The position numbers were made by a program, and so were the translations under genes. Below, piece after piece: positions 1 to 7,557 of a stretch of 7,557 nucleotides of DNA. Source of the stretch: Promethearchaeota archaeon. Its GTDB lineage: Archaea; Asgardarchaeota; Lokiarchaeia; Sigynarchaeales; SOKP01. Location of the stretch: contig WJIN01000430.1 of the NCBI GenBank assembly GCA_014730295.1, positions 1 through 7,557 of the forward strand, read 5' to 3'. Position 1 is the first letter of the stretch. Every line of letters begins with the position of its first letter. The notes beneath the pieces were generated by a model. The model saw only the letters and a program-made list of their open reading frames with translations. It was not told the origin of the DNA and searched no databases.

Positions 1-3000
1 CTTTATGTCACTCCAAAAATAGAAATGGAAGATTATTTAATAGACTTAAGGAGTTGGGTTGATGACACCTCGGGAAACAGAAATTTTAACCTAAAAATCT
101 ATACAAGAGAAAGATTTCACTCAAAAGCTTACATATTTGAGAAAAAGAAATCACACACAAGCCCCTCAATGCAAGGAATCGTTGGCTCCAGCAATCTTTC
201 ACTTTCGGGACTTGCTGGGAACACAGAATTGAATGCGAAAGTATATGATAATAATGCGGAAGCCTTAAAGAGCTGGTTTATGGAGATTTGGAAGGAAGCC
301 GATGAATTTTCAGAGAATTTATTTGAGATATTGGATAAATCTTGGGCATCCTATTTGCCCGGAACTGAAGGATTTCCCGATCCCTACTTTGTTTATATAA
401 AAACGATCTACGAGATGTATAAAGGAAGTCTGGAGACATCAGAAGAAATTTTACGGAGTTTTATCGTATATCAAAATTTGTATGAATTTCAAAAATGGGC
501 GGTATTGCGAGCAATTGAGGTTGCGAGGAAATATAACGGTGTAATCATTTCTGATGTAGTTGGAATGGGAAAGTCTTATATTGGTGCGGCTTGTCTTGAG
601 CATTTTTATCAAAAAAATCAGATATTAGGTCGCAGGGGAAAAATACTTCTGATATGTCCTCCGAAATTAATGGAAATGTGGGAAGGTATAATTAATAAAT
701 TTCATTTAAATGCTCAATTATTAAGTTTAGGAATGTTAAGTAAAGAAGGGTTCGATGAAACGCTATTAGATAAATATGCAAATACAATTTCAGTGTTAAT
801 TGATGAGAGCCACCATTTCAGAAACAACAATACTAATAGGTATGATAACATTACCCAGTTTTTACCCATTGTAAATGAGGTAATATTACTTACAGCAACC
901 CCTTACTCAAAAGGCGCGAGAGATGTTTATAACCAAATAAAACTCTTTCATTTGGACGATATTACAAATATACCCATAAATCCTCCAAATTTAAAAGAAT
1001 TCACATTAAATATTGAAAAAGGACATGGAAGCCTTTCCGAATTATTAACTCATGTCATGGTAAGGCGAACTCGCTACGATATTCTCAACCAATACGGAAT
1101 AAATGATAAAGATGGAAGAGACTATGTAGTAATTGGAGGGGAGAATAAATATTTCCCAGAAAGAAAATTAAAGACAAAAAGATATAGCATCTCAAAAGTA
1201 TATGGAAAAGGTTTCTACGATGAAATTGTTGATATTTTACGGAATTTAACATATTCTCGATATTCTTTAGGAAATTACTTAAAAAAGAAATATGAAACGA
1301 AAGAAAAATATCGAAATCTCCCCACCATCGGTAATAACTTACGAGGACTCATGAAATCACTATTGTTAAAACGTTTAGAAAGTAGCATTTATTCATTTAA
1401 AGAAACATTAAGGAAGATGATTAATACATACAATAATTTCCTTAACTTAATTAAACAAGGGAAGGTGGTGATGGGAAAAAAAGTAGATCAACTCCTTCGC
1501 GAGGAAGAGGATTTAGCAGATATTTCAGATCGGATTGATGTGTTGTTGAAAAGTGAAGAAATTGAAGATTATGACTTGAAAGCGTTTGATGAACAAAAAT
1601 TAAAAAAACACCTAAATGATGATCTCTCAGACCTTAACAAGTTATACTTGAAAATTAAGGGGATATGTGAAGAAATTCAAAAAGATTATAAGAAAGACAA
1701 AAAAATATGGGAATTAAGAGGGTTAGTGGAATCGCTTTATTCGGGGAAAAATGAGATTATAGCAGAACCAATTGAAAAAATTATAATTTTTAGTCAATAT
1801 AGCGACACAATTGACCATTTGAAGGGCGGATTAAAGTGGTTTAAAGATAATAAATATTTAAATAAATCTTTGAGGATTGATTTTGTTACTTCAGATACTA
1901 ATAATGTTCAAGATATCATTGATAGATTCGCTCCAAATGCAAATAATGTCAGAGATTCAATAGATAGTAAAGATGAGATTGATTTATTAGCTTCTACTGA
2001 TGTATTGAGTGAGGGTATTAACTTACAAGATGCTAATTGTGTTATAAATTACGATCTTCATTGGAATCCTCTTAAATTAATTCAAAGAATTGGAAGAGTG
2101 GATAGATTGGGGACTAAACATGAGAAAATATTTGCATTCAATTTTCTCCCCGAAAAGGATCTTGAAAAGGACTTAAACTTAATCGATAAGCTGGAAGCGA
2201 GGATAAATGAAATTAACGATGTATTTGGAATGGATTCAAAATTATTAAAAGAAGATGAGCAGCCAAATCTCTCTTATATGACATCAATTTATAAGGAAGA
2301 TTTGGAAGAGATTGAAAAATATGAAAGGACGATCCTAATTGGCGATGATCCCGTTTCAGATTCAATAAATCTATTAAAAAAATTAATGCAGAAAGATCAG
2401 GAACTAATAAATAAAATAAAAGGTTTGGATGGATTAAGAAGTGCTAAGAAATGGGAACAAAGTTTTGATGGTATATTTGTTTTATGTAAAGCAAGTGATT
2501 ATATTCGTCCTTATCTCATTAAGTTTGAAAAATCTAAACCAGAAATCCACGCAGCTCAACCAGAAATTATCCTTAAGACTATCAAGTCTGAACCAGAAGA
2601 AAAAGCGTTAAATATTGATCGAAATCTTTTTAGGAAATACAATACCGAAGCTTGTCAAAAAGCCATCTATGAATTTAAGAAAGATCTAAAAGAACGTAAA
2701 AAACTAATTGATGATCCCAGAAAACATAAAAGACTAAAATCGAAAAGAAGGTATGTTGAACGTCATCTAAGAGTTTTAGCCGAAAATATATCTGACGAGG
2801 AGCAAAAAAAGACCATAAATCACTATCGAACAATCATTCATAATATCTCAATCGTTCCTGTTTTAAGGGAATTTGAAAAAATCGAAGAAAAAAAATTAAC
2901 AGGAAAGGAAATCTTTCTTGCTACAGAATCTCTGATTCAAAAATATAATTTAGAAGAGAAGTGGGAGAAAAAAAAGGAATTAATGGAAACCTTTGACGAG

Positions 3001-3042
3001 CCCGTCCATATTTTATGCGGTATGTACTTAAAAGGGGAATAA
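1..3042 (+). CDS. PLD-domain SNF2-type superfamily 2 helicase (5' end outside window)
   Basis: The frame is open from base 1, so the gene starts upstream of the window; residues here are numbered from the in-frame ATG at 25. Residues 32-70 carry the second half of a phospholipase-D fold: HSK at 32-34, then GSSNLS at 54-59 and an N-x-E at 66-68. The Asp of a classical HxKx4D motif is Glu39, so nuclease activity is uncertain. The motor is complete: a Q-motif-like LYEFQKWA, Walker A GMGKS at 180-184, DESHH at 260-264, TATP at 290-293, FSQYSD at 589-594, SEGINLQ at 662-668 and QRIGRVDR at 687-694. A long Lys/Glu-rich, probably coiled-coil insertion lies between the two RecA lobes (about 430-570), and a charged tail follows to residue 1005. 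Family members are ATP-driven DNA translocases or remodellers, often found in defence islands. The substrate is unknown. The PCNA-like gene follows on the same strand. Host gene, cargo and defence gene all remain possible. Confidence 0.88.
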   Translation, partial: LYVTPKIEMEDYLIDLRSWVDDTSGNRNFNLKIYTRERFHSKAYIFEKKKSHTSPSMQGIVGSSNLSLSGLAGNTELNAKVYDNNAEALKSWFMEIWKEADEFSENLFEILDKSWASYLPGTEGFPDPYFVYIKTIYEMYKGSLETSEEILRSFIVYQNLYEFQKWAVLRAIEVARKYNGVIISDVVGMGKSYIGAACLEHFYQKNQILGRRGKILLICPPKLMEMWEGIINKFHLNAQLLSLGMLSKEGFDETLLDKYANTISVLIDESHHFRNNNTNRYDNITQFLPIVNEVILLTATPYSKGARDVYNQIKLFHLDDITNIPINPPNLKEFTLNIEKGHGSLSELLTHVMVRRTRYDILNQYGINDKDGRDYVVIGGENKYFPERKLKTKRYSISKVYGKGFYDEIVDILRNLTYSRYSLGNYLKKKYETKEKYRNLPTIGNNLRGLMKSLLLKRLESSIYSFKETLRKMINTYNNFLNLIKQGKVVMGKKVDQLLREEEDLADISDRIDVLLKSEEIEDYDLKAFDEQKLKKHLNDDLSDLNKLYLKIKGICEEIQKDYKKDKKIWELRGLVESLYSGKNEIIAEPIEKIIIFSQYSDTIDHLKGGLKWFKDNKYLNKSLRIDFVTSDTNNVQDIIDRFAPNANNVRDSIDSKDEIDLLASTDVLSEGINLQDANCVINYDLHWNPLKLIQRIGRVDRLGTKHEKIFAFNFLPEKDLEKDLNLIDKLEARINEINDVFGMDSKLLKEDEQPNLSYMTSIYKEDLEEIEKYERTILIGDDPVSDSINLLKKLMQKDQELINKIKGLDGLRSAKKWEQSFDGIFVLCKASDYIRPYLIKFEKSKPEIHAAQPEIILKTIKSEPEEKALNIDRNLFRKYNTEACQKAIYEFKKDLKERKKLIDDPRKHKRLKSKRRYVERHLRVLAENISDEEQKKTINHYRTIIHNISIVPVLREFEKIEEKKLTGKEIFLATESLIQKYNLEEKWEKKKELMETFDEPVHILCGMYLKGE

Positions 3043-3132
3043 TACCTTACAAGCATAATGAAGTTAATTTCTTCTAATGATTTTTGAATTTTGTTTAGTT
3101 TTTAAGTAAGGTGTAGGATATAGTTTTAAAAA
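3043..3132. other. Short A+T-rich intergenic spacer before the clamp gene
   Basis: This 90-nt gap separates the helicase stop from the ATG at 3133. It is T-rich at 3086-3104, which could act as an archaeal oligo-T terminator. TTTTTAAG near 3100-3106 lies about 26 nt before the ATG, the distance expected of an archaeal TATA box for a leaderless start. Both readings are weak in sequence this A+T-rich. Confidence 0.2.
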
Positions 3133-3359
3133 ATGAATGATCAAATATCTCACAAAATTTAGAGAATTTAGATATTAATTGGAAGAAATTAGCCAATAAG
3201 GGAAAAGAAACAGAAAAGATCGAACGATTAATAAAAACCTTCGCCCGTGAACAGGAAGAGATCATTAATGATTTTGTAGGACAATCTTCTAATAATTGTC
3301 TTTTTAATAAGGACTTAACTAATCTATCATATGAATTCGAGGAATACTTAGAGCTTAGA
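3133..3359 (+). other. Likely true 5' end of the PCNA-like gene, apparently frameshifted
   Basis: The clamp frame stays open upstream of its first in-frame start (TTG 3360) back to a TGA at 3138-3140, but contains no ATG, GTG or TTG there. An ATG at 3133 in the neighbouring frame reads only MNDQISHKI before a TAG at 3160. Adding one A to the AAAA run at 3154-3157 joins the two frames: MNDQISHKN then LENLDINWKKLANKGKE and onward without a stop into the clamp. The joined segment is a charged, helical sequence much like the residues after 3360. I infer that the real gene begins at 3133 and that one base is missing, either in the assembly or in the cell. Confidence 0.5.
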
Positions 3360-4244
3360 TTGAATAACTTAATAAGTGAAAAAAGTCAAAAAACCGATGA
3401 AGAGCTTTTAAAGAAAAAGTTTGACACATTTAAATTAGAGTTATTTAAATATCTTAACAATAAAATCAACATGTGTCTTTTCTCTGATATAACTTTCAAG
3501 CAAGGATATTATCTCTATAAATTATTTGATGCTTTAACAAAAATAAATTCTGAAGTCACATTCAAAATTAATCCTAAAAATTTAGAAATTTATACTTCTA
3601 ATGAATCAAACACCTATTTAATATGGCTCCTCCTAAAAGTAAAAAATATTCGATATGTTTATTATGATTCATTATGTTTATCAGTTAATTCAAAAGATAT
3701 GGTAAAAGCTTTAAGATGTAAGAAAGCAGATGAGGTCTCAACAAATCTGATTATTAAAAAGGATAAAATTATCGTAAATTTGTATTCAAGGCATTATAAG
3801 TCTAAAATTAGACGAGTAATAGAAAATTTAGAGATCAAAACACAAGAAAGTAAAATTTTGAATGACCTTATGAGCCATAAACACTCGGGTGTTTTTATTT
3901 TAGATAAAAATAAATTTTTACATCTTCTTTCACAGTCACAGAGATATTCTGAAGTTCTAAATTTAAAATTAACCAACAAAGCAGTTATTTTCGCGGAATC
4001 CAATAAATTTAACAAGAGTATAATTAAGTGGGATAAAAATTTGCTTACAAAATTAGCTCTGAAAACTGATTGTATAAGCATAACCTTTTCAATAGAACAT
4101 TTAAAAATTCTAACTAATTTTTTATTTGAATCAAATCCAAATTTGGTGTTTTATTTGAAGGAAAAATTGCCTTTAAAAATTAGATTAGACTTCAAAACGC
4201 TTGAGGAATCATCTGGATTAATCTTCATTGCGATAAGAAGGTAA
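3360..4244 (+). CDS. Divergent PCNA-like DNA sliding clamp
   Basis: The intact frame gives 294 residues from a TTG codon. Residues 1-33 are a charged helical extension. From about residue 36 the sequence follows the archaeal PCNA pattern. A first-domain stretch carries FDALTKINSEVTFKI (56-70) and then NPKNLEIYTS (71-80), matching the PCNA order of helix, strand and 'ALxKIxxEVTFKIxPxGLxIxAxD'. A SKDMVKALR helix at 111-119 follows. A linker around 150-170 is where the interdomain connector would lie. Domain two carries FILDKNKFLHLL (179-190). The C-terminal part carries SIEHLKILTNFL (244-255) and LPLKIRLDF (270-278), equivalent to the PCNA 'SLEYLKDIL' and 'xPLxLxF' segments. The protein ends in basic AIRR with no recognisable PCNA 'YLAP' strand. 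PCNA forms a trimeric ring that tethers polymerases and nucleases. Whether this one forms a ring is unknown. The start is doubtful because coding appears to continue upstream to 3133. The fold call is from pattern recognition only. Confidence 0.65.
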   Translation: MNNLISEKSQKTDEELLKKKFDTFKLELFKYLNNKINMCLFSDITFKQGYYLYKLFDALTKINSEVTFKINPKNLEIYTSNESNTYLIWLLLKVKNIRYVYYDSLCLSVNSKDMVKALRCKKADEVSTNLIIKKDKIIVNLYSRHYKSKIRRVIENLEIKTQESKILNDLMSHKHSGVFILDKNKFLHLLSQSQRYSEVLNLKLTNKAVIFAESNKFNKSIIKWDKNLLTKLALKTDCISITFSIEHLKILTNFLFESNPNLVFYLKEKLPLKIRLDFKTLEESSGLIFIAIRR

Positions 4245-4383
4245 GTTTACGGTTCAGGAAGTCAAAAAATTTTTTAATAATCCTAAATACTTTTCTAACA
4301 CTACTTATTTGAGGACAGAATGGAAGGTTTTAATAATTCAAGTTTTCCGTTTTCCTTAGAAAAATCAACTCATTTATCAATAA

Positions 4384-4569
4384 ATGGAATTCCAATTAAT
4401 TTCTCAATTAAATGAATTGTTGACCTCTTAAAATGAGAGAAAAGAAGATTTATCCATAAAAATTGATATAGATAAAAAAAGCATCCTTAAGCTTTTTAAC
4501 AATGTCCTATAGGGAGGAAATTATAAAAAATTTTACTTGGTATTTTTTAACATGAAGATTTTCAAATAA
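4384..4569 (+). pseudogene. Possible small decayed gene with two in-frame stops
   Basis: One frame from the ATG at 4384 to a TAA at 4567 reads as plausible protein apart from TAA at 4429 and TAG at 4510. Each stop is one base away from a Lys codon. The segments are MEFQLISQLNELLTS, then NERKEDLSIKIDIDKK followed by SILKLFNNVL, then GGNYKKFYLVFF and a short tail. The strand-like and helix-like alternation and the FYLVFF ending recall the clamp family, so it might be a relic of a second clamp-like domain. A short chance frame in A+T-rich DNA is also possible. Confidence 0.25.
4476..4497 (-). terminator. Candidate hairpin terminator downstream of tniQ
   Basis: AAAAAGC and GCTTTTT form a perfect 7-bp inverted repeat around an 8-nt loop. 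On the minus strand the hairpin is followed directly by further T, giving a seven-T run ending at 4474, which is the layout of an intrinsic terminator for the tniA-tniB-tniQ transcript. It begins about 95 nt past the tniQ stop. The stem is mostly A-T and therefore weak, and it also has a T run in the + direction, so it could serve both convergent transcripts. Confidence 0.3.
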
Positions 4570-4586
4570 GTGAGAAAAATAAGTGA
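4564..4586. repeat. Perfect 10-bp direct repeat AAATAAGTGA x2
   Basis: AAATAAGTGA occurs at 4564-4573 and again at 4577-4586, separated by GAA (13-nt period), ending 5 nt before the tniQ stop codon. Repeated transposase-binding sites are typical of the ends of this transposon class, though those are usually about 20 bp long. No further copy was seen in the spacer, and a 9-nt version occurs by itself in the clamp gene at 3371-3379. Function is unassigned. Confidence 0.3.
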
Positions 4587-4591
4587 ATGGA

Positions 4592-6334
4592 TTAATCATT
4601 TATTTCGGTGTGTGTATTCTTCTTATGTTTCGATAATCCACTGCTATATTTATACGCCTTACCACAAATTTCGCAGACAAATTTTCTTACATCAGAGTGA
4701 GAAATCATATGTTTTTTTAAATTACTTTTATCTCTAAATTTTTTCCCACATTTACAACATTCAAATGGTTTTTCTCCAGAATGTATTCTAAGATGCCTTG
4801 TTAAATGGCTTTTTCGTTTAAATCGCTTTTCACATTGTGGACATTTATAGGGTCGTTCATTAGTATGAGTTCTGATATGTTGTGTTAACGAATGAGATTG
4901 CGTAAAGCCCTTTCCACATATATCACAAATATAAGGTTTTTCTCCCGTGTGAACTCTTTTATGGACATTCAAAGCACTTTTTTGTTTAAAACTCTTTCCG
5001 CATTCATCACATTTGTATGGTTTTTCTCCCGTATGAATCCTTATATGGTTCTTTAAGTTATATTTTGTATTAAATCTTTTTTTGCAGATATGACATTCAT
5101 AAGGTTTAATGTTATGAACTTCTCTTAGATGATGGATATATTGTTTTCTATGTCTAAATTCTTGATTACAATTACTTTCGGTGCATTTGAATGGATGGGG
5201 TTTTTTATGCAGTTTAATGTGATTATTGTAATCCCACTTAGTTACAAACTTTTCATTGCATACTTCACAAGTATAGGTTTTCTCATTATTATGTCTTTTT
5301 ATATGGATTTCCATTCGAGCAACGCTGTTTTCCGTAAAATCACAATTTTTTTCCGGACATAGAAAAGGTTTATCTGTCCAGAATGACTCTCGTGTTGAAT
5401 AAAATCTTTTCAAAAATTCATCTAGCTTGTTTCCATCATCATAGAGGTTAATTGCGGTTCCCATTAGTAGATAGGTTATTTGGACATTACCAAAATATGC
5501 TTTTTTATTGGGTTTATCTATATTTTTCCTTTCGATATCTTTTATGCTTTCTTCTTTGGTTAGATAATGATTTTGAAAAATCTTATCTGAAAAAGAGCAA
5601 TGATTGGCTATAAACCAAGCTAAAGTAATTATTTTATATGTATCCTCAAGTTTTCTTTGTTCTAATCCCGTAAAACGAGTTATTAATGGATCATTTAATG
5701 GGATTGTTATTGGTTTGATTTTTGCTAACTCAAACTTACAAACACAGCATTTGTTCATCGCTGAATCCCATTTTAACTCATAGGGAGCAATGGAAGCTCC
5801 ACAATTAGGACATTTATTAACTAAAAATGTATGATGATTCAGACATATTGGAATATAGGCAAAACGCCAGATTTTCCTAAAAAAAGGTTTTTCATCCTCC
5901 TTCAAACATAAAGGACAGTATCTTAGACCATTTTTTGCTCTTTTTCTCCATCCAGTAAACCAAAGATCTTTCACAACAGAGATTCCGCTGTATTTTTCGG
6001 AAAAATTTGTAATACTATTTTTTAAATCAGAAAGACTCATCTTTTGAAGCTTTTCTTTTGGAATTTCTGTTTTCTGAGAAAAAAATTTTACTAATTCTGG
6101 AATCCAATTTAAATCTAAGTCAATTAACGCCGGATAGTAACCTTTTTCTCCTGTTAACGAAGAGGTTTTTTCTAAATTTGCTAAGGAGGTTCTTGTAAAC
6201 CAAGAAGCAAGAGACTCCCCCTCAAGAGGAACTAGTCGTTCTGCCCAGAGTTTAGGATAGTAATGATTCTTAAAAATTTCAGAATAAGACATTACAGCTT
6301 CTATAACATCTTCTTTGCAGTATTTTGAAGTCAT
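4592..6334 (-). CDS. tniQ: TniQ target-selection protein fused to a nine-finger C2H2 zinc-finger array
   Basis: This is a 580-residue protein in a single unbroken frame. Residues 31-215 form a TniQ domain: LVPLEGESLASWFTR near 34-48 is the family's N-terminal signature, and RYCPLCL (138-144) with C164 and H167 makes the first zinc site. CPNCG (175-179) with C196 and C199 makes the second. Residues 216-320 are a helical region without a recognised motif. Residues 326-575 are nine consecutive C2H2 fingers. TniQ/TnsD proteins of Tn7/Tn5053-like transposons bind the target, or a targeting partner, and recruit the TniB/TnsC ATPase. Their C-terminal part usually carries target recognition. Here that position is occupied by an eukaryote-style DNA-reading array, so I infer zinc-finger-directed target choice. 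The gene follows tniB by 52 nt, probably in one operon. The start is set by the only ATG before the TniQ domain other than M15. No strong ribosome-binding site is visible. Confidence 0.93.
   Translation of the reverse strand: MTSKYCKEDVIEAVMSYSEIFKNHYYPKLWAERLVPLEGESLASWFTRTSLANLEKTSSLTGEKGYYPALIDLDLNWIPELVKFFSQKTEIPKEKLQKMSLSDLKNSITNFSEKYSGISVVKDLWFTGWRKRAKNGLRYCPLCLKEDEKPFFRKIWRFAYIPICLNHHTFLVNKCPNCGASIAPYELKWDSAMNKCCVCKFELAKIKPITIPLNDPLITRFTGLEQRKLEDTYKIITLAWFIANHCSFSDKIFQNHYLTKEESIKDIERKNIDKPNKKAYFGNVQITYLLMGTAINLYDDGNKLDEFLKRFYSTRESFWTDKPFLCPEKNCDFTENSVARMEIHIKRHNNEKTYTCEVCNEKFVTKWDYNNHIKLHKKPHPFKCTESNCNQEFRHRKQYIHHLREVHNIKPYECHICKKRFNTKYNLKNHIRIHTGEKPYKCDECGKSFKQKSALNVHKRVHTGEKPYICDICGKGFTQSHSLTQHIRTHTNERPYKCPQCEKRFKRKSHLTRHLRIHSGEKPFECCKCGKKFRDKSNLKKHMISHSDVRKFVCEICGKAYKYSSGLSKHKKNTHTEIND
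4610..5359 (-). other. Nine tandem TFIIIA-type C2H2 zinc fingers within TniQ
   Basis: Zinc ligands (C,C,H,H) by TniQ residue number are: F1 326,331,344,348; F2 356,359,372,376; F3 384,389,402,407; F4 414,417,430,434; F5 442,445,458,462; F6 470,473,486,490; F7 498,501,514,518; F8 526,529,542,546; F9 554,557,570,575. All 36 are present. F4 to F8 are regular 28-residue units (84 bp), joined by TGEKP, TGEKP, TNERP and SGEKP linkers, the hallmark of DNA-binding arrays. F1 to F3 and the F8-F9 junction have atypical linkers. Helix residues at -1,2,3,6 are F1 S,A,R,I; F2 T,W,D,N; F3 H,K,Q,H; F4 T,Y,N,N; F5 Q,S,A,V; F6 Q,H,S,Q; F7 R,S,H,R; F8 D,S,N,K; F9 Y,S,G,K. Every finger differs, which suggests reading of a specific site of up to about 27 bp. 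Confidence 0.95.
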
Positions 6335-6386
6335 TTTTTCACTATCTAATTTACTAGAATTTATTATTTAAATTAAATTACTAAAA

Positions 6387-7232
6387 TTACCATCTGAATG
6401 GCATGGATTTCAATAAACTAAGTGTAATTCGCTCTTCACCACCCCTTATGGCTTTTATTCCACATTTTCTTATAATTGTGGTAATCCTACCGATTTTTCC
6501 TTCACTTACGGCATGTAATCTTTTTGCGATGTTTACCGAATGAAGGTTTGAAGGTTTTTTCAATGGTAATAATGCCTCAAATGTGGCAAGGAGATTATAA
6601 TAATCATCAGTCCCATCTTCCCATAGAGGCATTTCTATGGCGGGATATCGATCCGCAACTTGTTTATCTAAATCAAGTATTTCTTTTGCTGTTTCAATAC
6701 CTACAAGAACAATTGGAATTTGTGCTCTGTTATTTAGAGATTTTAATCCATTAAGAATATCTCTCTTATGATCTCTTCTTGAATCAAGGAGATTTTGAAT
6801 TTCATCGAAAAATAACATTTTTACCTTTTGATTTTCCAATCCTACCAAGATTTTCCTACGAAGATCTCCAGTTGACCTTGTTGATTTTGCGGGATATCCA
6901 AGAGTATTAAGTATCTCAACATAGAATTCTTTTAATGTTGTTCGCTCTGGTGTTTCCACATATACCAAATTACCAATATCTGGTGAATATTTTACAATAA
7001 ACTTCCTTATCATCGTTGTTTTGCCGTTATTTGTTGGGGAAACGAGAAGCATCCCCTCCATTCGAGGTCTGACAGGTTGTTCAAGCAAGTCTAAAATTTC
7101 TTGCCATATAACTTTAATTACCTCATATTCAACAAAACTACCTTTTTGAATGAATCTAATTCTCACTTCATCATTTTCATCTATTATACTCTTTACTTTA
7201 GGATGTAAAACTCTTTTAATTTGTTTACTCAT
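6387..7232 (-). CDS. tniB: TniB/TnsC-type AAA+ ATPase of a Tn7/Tn5053-like transposon
   Basis: This is a 281-residue protein, about the normal TniB length. Walker A is SPTNNGKTT at 65-73, the characteristic TniB/TnsC form. Walker B is MLFFDEIQN at 139-147. The sensor region is PIVLVGIETAKEIL at 173-186, followed by the arginine-finger-type ADRYP at 193-197 and the family's downstream MPLW at 201-204. TniB/TnsC assembles on target DNA with ATP, is recruited by TniQ, and passes the target to the TniA transposase. The ATG overlaps the tniA stop as ATGA and has a GGGAGG 10 nt upstream, so translation is probably coupled to tniA. Translation ends 52 nt before tniQ. No catalytic residue appears to be missing, so the ATPase looks functional. 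Confidence 0.93.
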   Translation of the reverse strand: MSKQIKRVLHPKVKSIIDENDEVRIRFIQKGSFVEYEVIKVIWQEILDLLEQPVRPRMEGMLLVSPTNNGKTTMIRKFIVKYSPDIGNLVYVETPERTTLKEFYVEILNTLGYPAKSTRSTGDLRRKILVGLENQKVKMLFFDEIQNLLDSRRDHKRDILNGLKSLNNRAQIPIVLVGIETAKEILDLDKQVADRYPAIEMPLWEDGTDDYYNLLATFEALLPLKKPSNLHSVNIAKRLHAVSEGKIGRITTIIRKCGIKAIRGGEERITLSLLKSMPFRW

Positions 7233-7557
7233 TGCTTATCATCCTCCCAAAAACTAACAGAATAGATATCTGGTTTTTTTTCTTCTTTTTCTTGTTTTTC
7301 TTCCTCATCAAAAAAGAAAACTTTAGGGACAAATGTTTTTACATGATTTTTCTGCTCTTGCCTGTTATTTATATCTTTTTTTTTTAGCTCTAATTCTTGT
7401 GGAAGTTGCTTTCTGTTTATGAACTTGGATTTTTTCCTTCCTTTTTCTCGCAGACTTTGCTGTTTTCTTTAGTTCTTTGGCTTTTTGGATAATTTTTTGT
7501 CGCTGTGCCATTGTCTTTGCTAAATCCCTCTGAGACACTGATGGAGATTTCCTAATC
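7229..7557 (-). CDS. tniA: TniA/TnsB transposase, C-terminal part (5' end outside window, frameshifted)
   Basis: The gene enters from the right edge on the minus strand. The first frame reads from 7556 and carries a strongly basic helical region (SQRDLAKTMAQRQKII, then KRKEKIQVHKQKATS) and stops at a TAA at 7365-7367. A second frame runs from 7375 to a TGA at 7229-7231, through VKTFVPKVFFFDEEE and an acidic stretch to PDIYSVSFWEDDKQ. The two join exactly if the A10 run (7376-7385) is read as A9. The second frame contains the tniB ribosome-binding site and ends in an ATGA overlap with tniB, good evidence that it is translated. TniA/TnsB is the DDE transposase that cuts and joins the transposon ends. 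Its catalytic core lies outside the window. Identification rests on gene order and the tail, since no DDE motif is visible here. A C-terminal hook that binds the ATPase is known in TnsB and MuA, and the acidic tail may play that role. Confidence 0.72.
7243..7248 (-). promoter_or_regulatory. Ribosome-binding site of tniB
   Basis: GGGAGG on the minus strand lies 10 nt before the tniB ATG and inside the last codons of tniA. An ATG immediately after it (7240-7242) would give only five codons before a stop, so the ATG at 7232 is the better start. The placement suits translational coupling with the ATGA overlap. Confidence 0.6.
7376..7385 (-). other. A10 homopolymer at the tniA frame change
   Basis: Ten A residues in the coding strand sit exactly where the tniA reading frame changes. 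Reading one fewer A links the two tniA segments without a stop. Candidate explanations are a base-calling or assembly error in a long homopolymer, a real mutation that removes the last 49 codons from the main product, or polymerase slippage that yields two TniA forms. Confidence 0.6.

Follow-up and report, generated by a model that had tools for sequence, protein, structure and literature searches.

A TniQ protein fused to a C2H2 zinc-finger array, the likely target selector of a Tn7/Tn5053-like transposon on an archaeal contig

TnsD recruits TnsC and recognizes a conserved target site through determinants that extend over the entire protein and include a zinc motif (PMC2918618). The C-terminal extension of TnsD-type proteins is made up of helix-turn-helix (HTH) domains, and small TniQs depend on partners, for example TnsF or a Cas effector (PMC10293859). 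A published Lokiarchaeon operon contains TniQ, PCNA, TOPRIM and InsG beside Argonaute (PMC11217426). Here, we analyzed a stretch of 7,557 nt from a Promethearchaeota archaeon (contig WJIN01000430.1), hereafter the window, in which a gene next to tniB encodes a TniQ domain followed by nine eukaryote-type C2H2 zinc fingers. We consider this protein the likely target selector of a Tn7/Tn5053-like transposon, with the fingers acting as DNA address reader and TniQ recruiting TniB and the transposase, and put the probability of this reading at about 72%. Protein-guided targeting by a C2H2 reader had been proposed in an earlier note on this DNA; it stands as the best reading of operon position, domain order, fold and contact conservation.

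The gene (4592-6334, minus strand) is a single frame running from ATG to stop, open throughout its 580 codons, as the earlier note had stated. The TniQ domain spans residues 33-171 according to Pfam (63.3 bits against a cut-off of 27, E 5e-17), which covers the C-terminal half with zf-C2H2 (E 6.5e-43) and zf-H2C2_2 (E 3.6e-47). A TniQ profile compared with solved TniQ and TnsD chains gave a best E of 2.5e-7. Both zinc sites of the TniQ part are intact (C140/C143/C164/H167 and C175/C178/C196/C199), their eight ligands being invariant across a seven-row alignment of the window protein and six relatives, and a motif parse for C-x2-4-C-x12-H-x3-5-H units found the four ligands complete in 9/9 fingers; on both counts the earlier description holds. 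Its description of the linkers as TGEKP-class needs narrowing: exact TGEKP occurs before fingers 5 and 6 only, the remaining linkers are variants, and those around fingers 1-3 are atypical. The structure model contains nine beta-beta-alpha units, with a block predicted local distance difference test (pLDDT) score of 77-88 over residues 351-570 and lower values in finger 1, and Foldseek and VIA-align match the predicted array fold to the DNA-bound arrays of Aart, PRDM9 and CTCF. A minisatellite-like finger array, of which PRDM9 is an example, was considered and rejected, as no tandem repeat row lies beneath the fingers of the gene. The anatomy follows the TnsD-type layout of a TniQ core and a long C-terminal extension of DNA-binding-type domains. 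As this extension consists of C2H2 fingers instead of the HTH domains of Tn7 TnsD, we do not class the protein as TnsD, only as working like TnsD.

The immediate context fits a Tn7/Tn5053-like element: the window contains a TniB/TnsC-type AAA+ ATPase (Pfam TniB E 1.2e-45) in addition to the TniQ/TnsD protein, identified by its Pfam match (E 5e-17) and by the profile matches to solved TniQ and TnsD. The start of tniB is overlapped by the stop of the upstream gene as ATGA, and a gap of 52 bp separates tniB from tniQ; the presumed tniA, tniB and tniQ therefore look like one operon.

Searching for further proteins with TniQ and C2H2 fingers, as the earlier note had suggested, was productive, with 10 found and arrays of up to 11-12 fingers (by parse 11 in P0010 and in P0011, 12 in P0012). 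A protein search with window residues 1-345 yielded 8 proteins, 7 of them with TniQ plus C2H2; residues 1-340 of P0007 yielded 6, namely P0007 and five new ones, three of which carry fingers; and a profile search (A3) yielded 24, comprising 7 finger proteins, all already known, and 17 without fingers. Since the profile search missed P0010-P0013, the protein searches are not exhaustive. In total, 10 of 28 distinct proteins, from several sources, are fusions, so that the window protein has at least 10 fused relatives. Chimerism, contamination or a single bad assembly was rejected as an explanation, given 11 fused proteins of several sources with graded divergence. No relative was found among the genome contigs searched with the fusion protein or its alignments, nor among the viral contigs searched with these, with TniB or with the PCNA-like open reading frame (ORF) of the window.

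A tree of the TniQ parts (30 rows) gathers all 11 finger proteins, window included, on a single 15-row branch with 100/100 support. Within it, the window protein and P0001-P0006 form a 98/96 branch (clade I), while P0007, P0010, P0011 and P0012 make up a second group whose members differ in finger number and contacts. On the best tree finger presence requires two changes, which leaves room for a single origin, and a collinear nine-finger core is common to the fused family. Because the motif parse began at residue 300, it skipped fingers 1 and 2 of P0001, a shorter protein, both of which are present in the alignment; finger 3 of P0003 and P0007 and finger 9 of P0007 also escaped the parse. In 2 of 10 fused relatives finger 3 lacks its final His, which is replaced by Gln in P0003 and by Tyr in P0007, and the His residues of P0007 finger 9 are unusually spaced. 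The atypical outer fingers may be dispensable. Two further proteins of the branch have a layout of their own. P0009 (606 amino acids) is a tandem TniQ pair in one protein without fingers, and P0008 groups with its second half. P0014 (275 amino acids, on a 25.8-kb contig) lies next to the second group and stops after its TniQ part, short of any array; its fingers may have been lost or split into another gene, or its frame may be broken.

To compare the readers, residues were considered at helix positions -1, 2, 3 and 6, which we take to be the base-contact positions of a C2H2 finger, and set against the other non-ligand finger positions (scaffold; 105 sites in the pair comparison, which includes helix positions 1 and 5, and 87 in the site test, where these are set apart). 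P0001, a near copy of the window protein, was excluded from the clade I site test and from the count of 15 pairs. In clade I, mean pairwise identity reaches 0.743 over the 36 contacts, compared with 0.471 over the 87 scaffold sites and 0.545 over TniQ. Contacts exceed scaffold with p 1.4e-5, and do so in all 15 pairs, in 10 of these at p <0.05; because the sites are not independent draws on the tree, the p-values are guides only. At a TniQ identity of 49-65%, clade I thus keeps its reading residues while the finger scaffold drifts, which points to a fixed address, and judged from this pattern the clade would aim at one conserved site. Positions -1, 2 and 3 of fingers 4-8 are conserved in clade I (0.81, 0.77 and 0.88), and these fingers have canonical spacing, as in DNA readers. 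This bears on the idea that RNA or protein, such as a host or guide factor, is what the fingers bind, in an adaptor role like that of TniQ with Cascade or TnsF. RNA binding is known for C2H2 proteins, a WT1-RNA entry stands at row 47 of the VIA-align matches, and fingers 1-3 are atypical; set against fingers 4-8, such a role appears quite improbable.

A different picture emerges from P0010 and P0011. TniQ identity is 87% both in this pair (258/297 columns) and between the window protein and P0001 (222/255; P0001 lacks its N-terminus), but 17/36 contacts are retained in the former and 35/36 in the latter (Fisher p 2e-6). The most diverged segment of P0010/P0011 is residues 313-502, spanning fingers 1-6 and the preceding junction, with 39% differences compared with 12% elsewhere (0/100 permutations as strong). 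Contacts are retained at 8/24 positions in fingers 1-6 and at 16/20 in fingers 7-11. The family-usual contacts of fingers 5 and 6 (QSA., QHSE) are present in P0011 and absent from P0010, so P0010 looks derived there. The array of this pair looks partly rewritten, whether a block was replaced by recombination or finger conversion, selection was diversifying or constraint was relaxed. The earlier note had supposed that relatives with different finger sets would make the array an evolving address tag. Half of this is borne out: finger sets do differ in the second group, and one of its pairs has changed in fingers 1-6, whereas the contacts of clade I are conserved and its address appears fixed. 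For a natural family of zinc-finger-addressed transposons, in which one clade's address is strongly constrained and other lineages rewrite theirs by finger-block replacement, we see even odds.

The same data speak to an alternative in which the array is directed at DNA of the element itself, its ends or promoter, aiding synapsis or regulating the tni operon without choosing a target. C2H2 arrays commonly act as transcription regulators in eukaryotes, and the conserved contacts of clade I would also suit conserved transposon ends. However, a rewritten array beside a little-changed TniQ, as in P0010/P0011, is easier to understand as a new target than as new ends, and the fusion partner, TniQ, has target choice as its known task (PMC10293859). 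Binding to the element's own DNA is therefore unlikely in our view, though it is the strongest of the alternatives.

Several observations weigh against a target-selecting array. In P0010/P0011, change at contacts does not significantly exceed that at scaffold positions (p 0.17, one pair), so that selection on contacts explains the pair no better than block replacement or relaxed constraint. In the second group as a whole, contacts (0.431) are no more conserved than scaffold (0.427), and the group itself is not firm, with branch support of 81/92 without and 94/97 with P0014. P0008, both halves of P0009 and P0014 (4/15 rows, 3 proteins) lack fingers on the finger-bearing branch; relatives without the fusion were named in the earlier note as a finding that would speak against its proposal, and these do so weakly. 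The TniQ half of the structure model is poor, with many stretches of pLDDT <50, and VIA-align of the model returned no TniQ row, its rows mainly covering residues 435-577, so that the TniQ half was barely tested. The contact positions are assumed from general knowledge of C2H2 fingers, and the helix code used to read fingers 4-8 is likewise our assumption, after the designed-finger literature. A first coarse reading, GACNGGNTANTANAG, has 1 match in the window at <=2 mismatches (1.05 expected); a later reading of the window protein, ACGGGAYAATAAAT, has 2 at <=3 mismatches (2.38 expected); and the clade I reading, ACNGGCYAATATAG, has 0 (2.19 expected). The window thus holds no more of these sites than chance would give, although the true site is expected beyond the element's limits, and nothing is concluded from these counts. 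Neither frame piece upstream of tniB matches Pfam and the window contains no recognisable tniA. No transposon end, insertion site, empty site or target duplication came to light, the far end of the element lying beyond the window. Finally, positions 3000-4700 and 6300-7557 hold AT-rich imperfect repeats only, none resembling end repeats, in a search that had no shuffle control and with most of the element beyond the window; the same result counts against binding of the array to the element's own ends.

The lack of contact conservation in the second group would also suit an array that serves as a general low-specificity DNA anchor, with insertion nearly random or set by another factor such as a sliding-clamp-like protein. 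A PCNA-like ORF adjoins tniQ, TniQ and PCNA occur in one Lokiarchaeon operon (PMC11217426), and TnsE of Tn7 acts via the beta clamp (PMC9690074). Conservation of contacts above scaffold in clade I is unexpected for a non-specific anchor, and we regard this as the least probable of the alternatives, marginally behind RNA or protein binding.

If the array does select targets, the following course can be envisaged. Placed where TnsD has its HTH domains, the C2H2 array would, by analogy, bind double-stranded DNA, with fingers 4-8 as the main reader of about 15 bp. The TniQ core would bring TniB and the transposase to the address bound by the array, and insertion would take place at a fixed distance from the bound site, again as in TnsD. 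The conservation pattern further suggests that a lineage may occasionally rewrite part of its array, which would shift it to another site.

Coordinates of the features are collected in the table. The name tniA is inferred from position, since neither upstream frame has a Pfam match; coding sense at this gene end is divided between two frames, 7229-7468 and 7365-7556. The apparent frame change upstream of tniB (7365-7468, minus strand) falls in an A-rich stretch and may be an error, decay or a programmed frameshift. The open frame of the PCNA-like ORF extends back to 3141 without any ATG. Its match to PCNA in the PDB is weak (best E 6.2e-4), and a single-sequence fold reached a mean pLDDT of 35 and was not used; an element-borne clamp is possible. 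Weak as the match is, a PCNA-type sliding clamp would suggest an archaeal host. The protein encoded at 1-3042 is close to PADLOC C3a139 'HKD+Snf2' (E 3.1e-58), with weaker matches to DrmD and DpdE, and is a possible defence-type cargo. No Cas family was found among four scanned ORFs and no Rfam match in the window, the remainder of the element lying outside it.

Table 1. Positions of genes and protein parts in the window
Feature	Position	Strand	Basis
tniQ-C2H2 fusion gene, 580 codons	4592..6334	-	Open frame, Pfam TniQ and zf-C2H2, 10 fused relatives
TniQ core, residues 26-322: helical part, two zinc sites, second helical part	5369..6259	-	Pfam, profile, ligands
Array of nine C2H2 fingers, residues 326-575	4610..5359	-	Motif parse, model, structure matches
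Atypical fingers 1-3, residues 326-407: C-x4-C spacing in 1 and 3, linkers other than TGEKP	5114..5359	-	Motif parse
Fingers 4-8, residues 414-546, C-x2-C spacing, contacts conserved in clade I	4697..5095	-	Parse and site comparison
tniB, AAA+ ATPase, 281 amino acids	6387..7232	-	Pfam TniB E 1.2e-45; 52 bp upstream of tniQ
3' gene end, presumed tniA (transposase)	7229..7557	-	Name by position only
Divergent PCNA (sliding-clamp)-like ORF, possible cargo	3360..4244	+	Pfam PCNA_N 22.7 bits, cut-off 20.3
PLD + SNF2 helicase, defence-type, 5' end cut by window edge, possible cargo	1..3042	+	Pfam, PADLOC

Plasmid and phage records are distant from this locus. The fusion protein matched 281 plasmid and 2 phage records, all below 60% identity, with 80% query coverage reached by 0/281 and 0/2, respectively; the best 20 of the 281 plasmid rows are distant TniQ proteins or unannotated places, together with one RHS and two C2H2 proteins. 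For TniB and the helicase, the phage records matched were all distant (4 and 11). A 260-codon gene at 1998-2780 of locus L002 (CP074271.1), a conjugative plasmid annotated as Salmonella enterica, is annotated as a C2H2-type zinc finger protein, and its product shares 40% identity with query residues 382-556 of the array. Mobile DNA of prokaryotes may hold eukaryote-type arrays more widely, or CP074271.1 may be an assembly artefact. On the megaplasmid NZ_CP030127.1, two TniQ frames lie about 5 kb apart (L003 and L004, about 390470 and 385360) in a dual-TniQ arrangement.

The HTH or recombinase-derived readers of protein-guided Tn7-like elements are hard to reprogram, and RNA-guided elements need a large Cas complex. 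Joined to a C2H2 array, TniQ would make a compact selector with an address written in a partly understood code, so that retargeting would become directly testable. If a natural family of zinc-finger-addressed transposons exists, nature has already made the 'zinc-finger-programmed transposase' sought by engineers. That long C2H2 arrays of eukaryote type, their recognition residues under constraint, occur in a mobile element of a prokaryote also bears on the origin and movement of such arrays.

Among described systems, the fusion family resembles Tn7 TnsD, the glmS-site selector, and other HTH-extended TniQ/TnsD proteins in its TniQ-type N-terminal core with zinc site(s), its C-terminal putative site reader and its tni/tns operon, and differs in that 9-12 C2H2 fingers of eukaryote type take the place of HTH domains in the extension (PMC10293859, PMC2918618). 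In Tn6022, which targets comM, a dedicated DNA reader, TnsF (Orf3), likewise works with TniQ; the first 199 residues of TnsF include zinc fingers, and one TniQ-TnsF fusion is reported, but the TnsF reader is recombinase-derived and normally a separate gene (PMC10293859). The word C2H2 is absent from the main text of that paper, and no published TniQ plus C2H2 selector was found in the titles and abstract openings searched, with most subscription papers and all bioRxiv-only preprints outside this scope. CRISPR-associated transposons (Cascade or Cas12k) resemble the window system in that TniQ connects a reprogrammable address reader to TnsC/TniB (PMC10293859). Their reader is an RNA-guided complex, whereas that of the window would be protein modules in the same chain. 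PRDM9, ZFP568, CTCF and the designed Aart share array fold and helix layout with the fusion, but the eukaryotic poly-C2H2 proteins and Aart have no TniQ partner; natural poly-C2H2 proteins are regulators, recombination or repression factors. Protein-guided TniQ selectors are already known, and what would be new here is the kind of reader, a C2H2 array.
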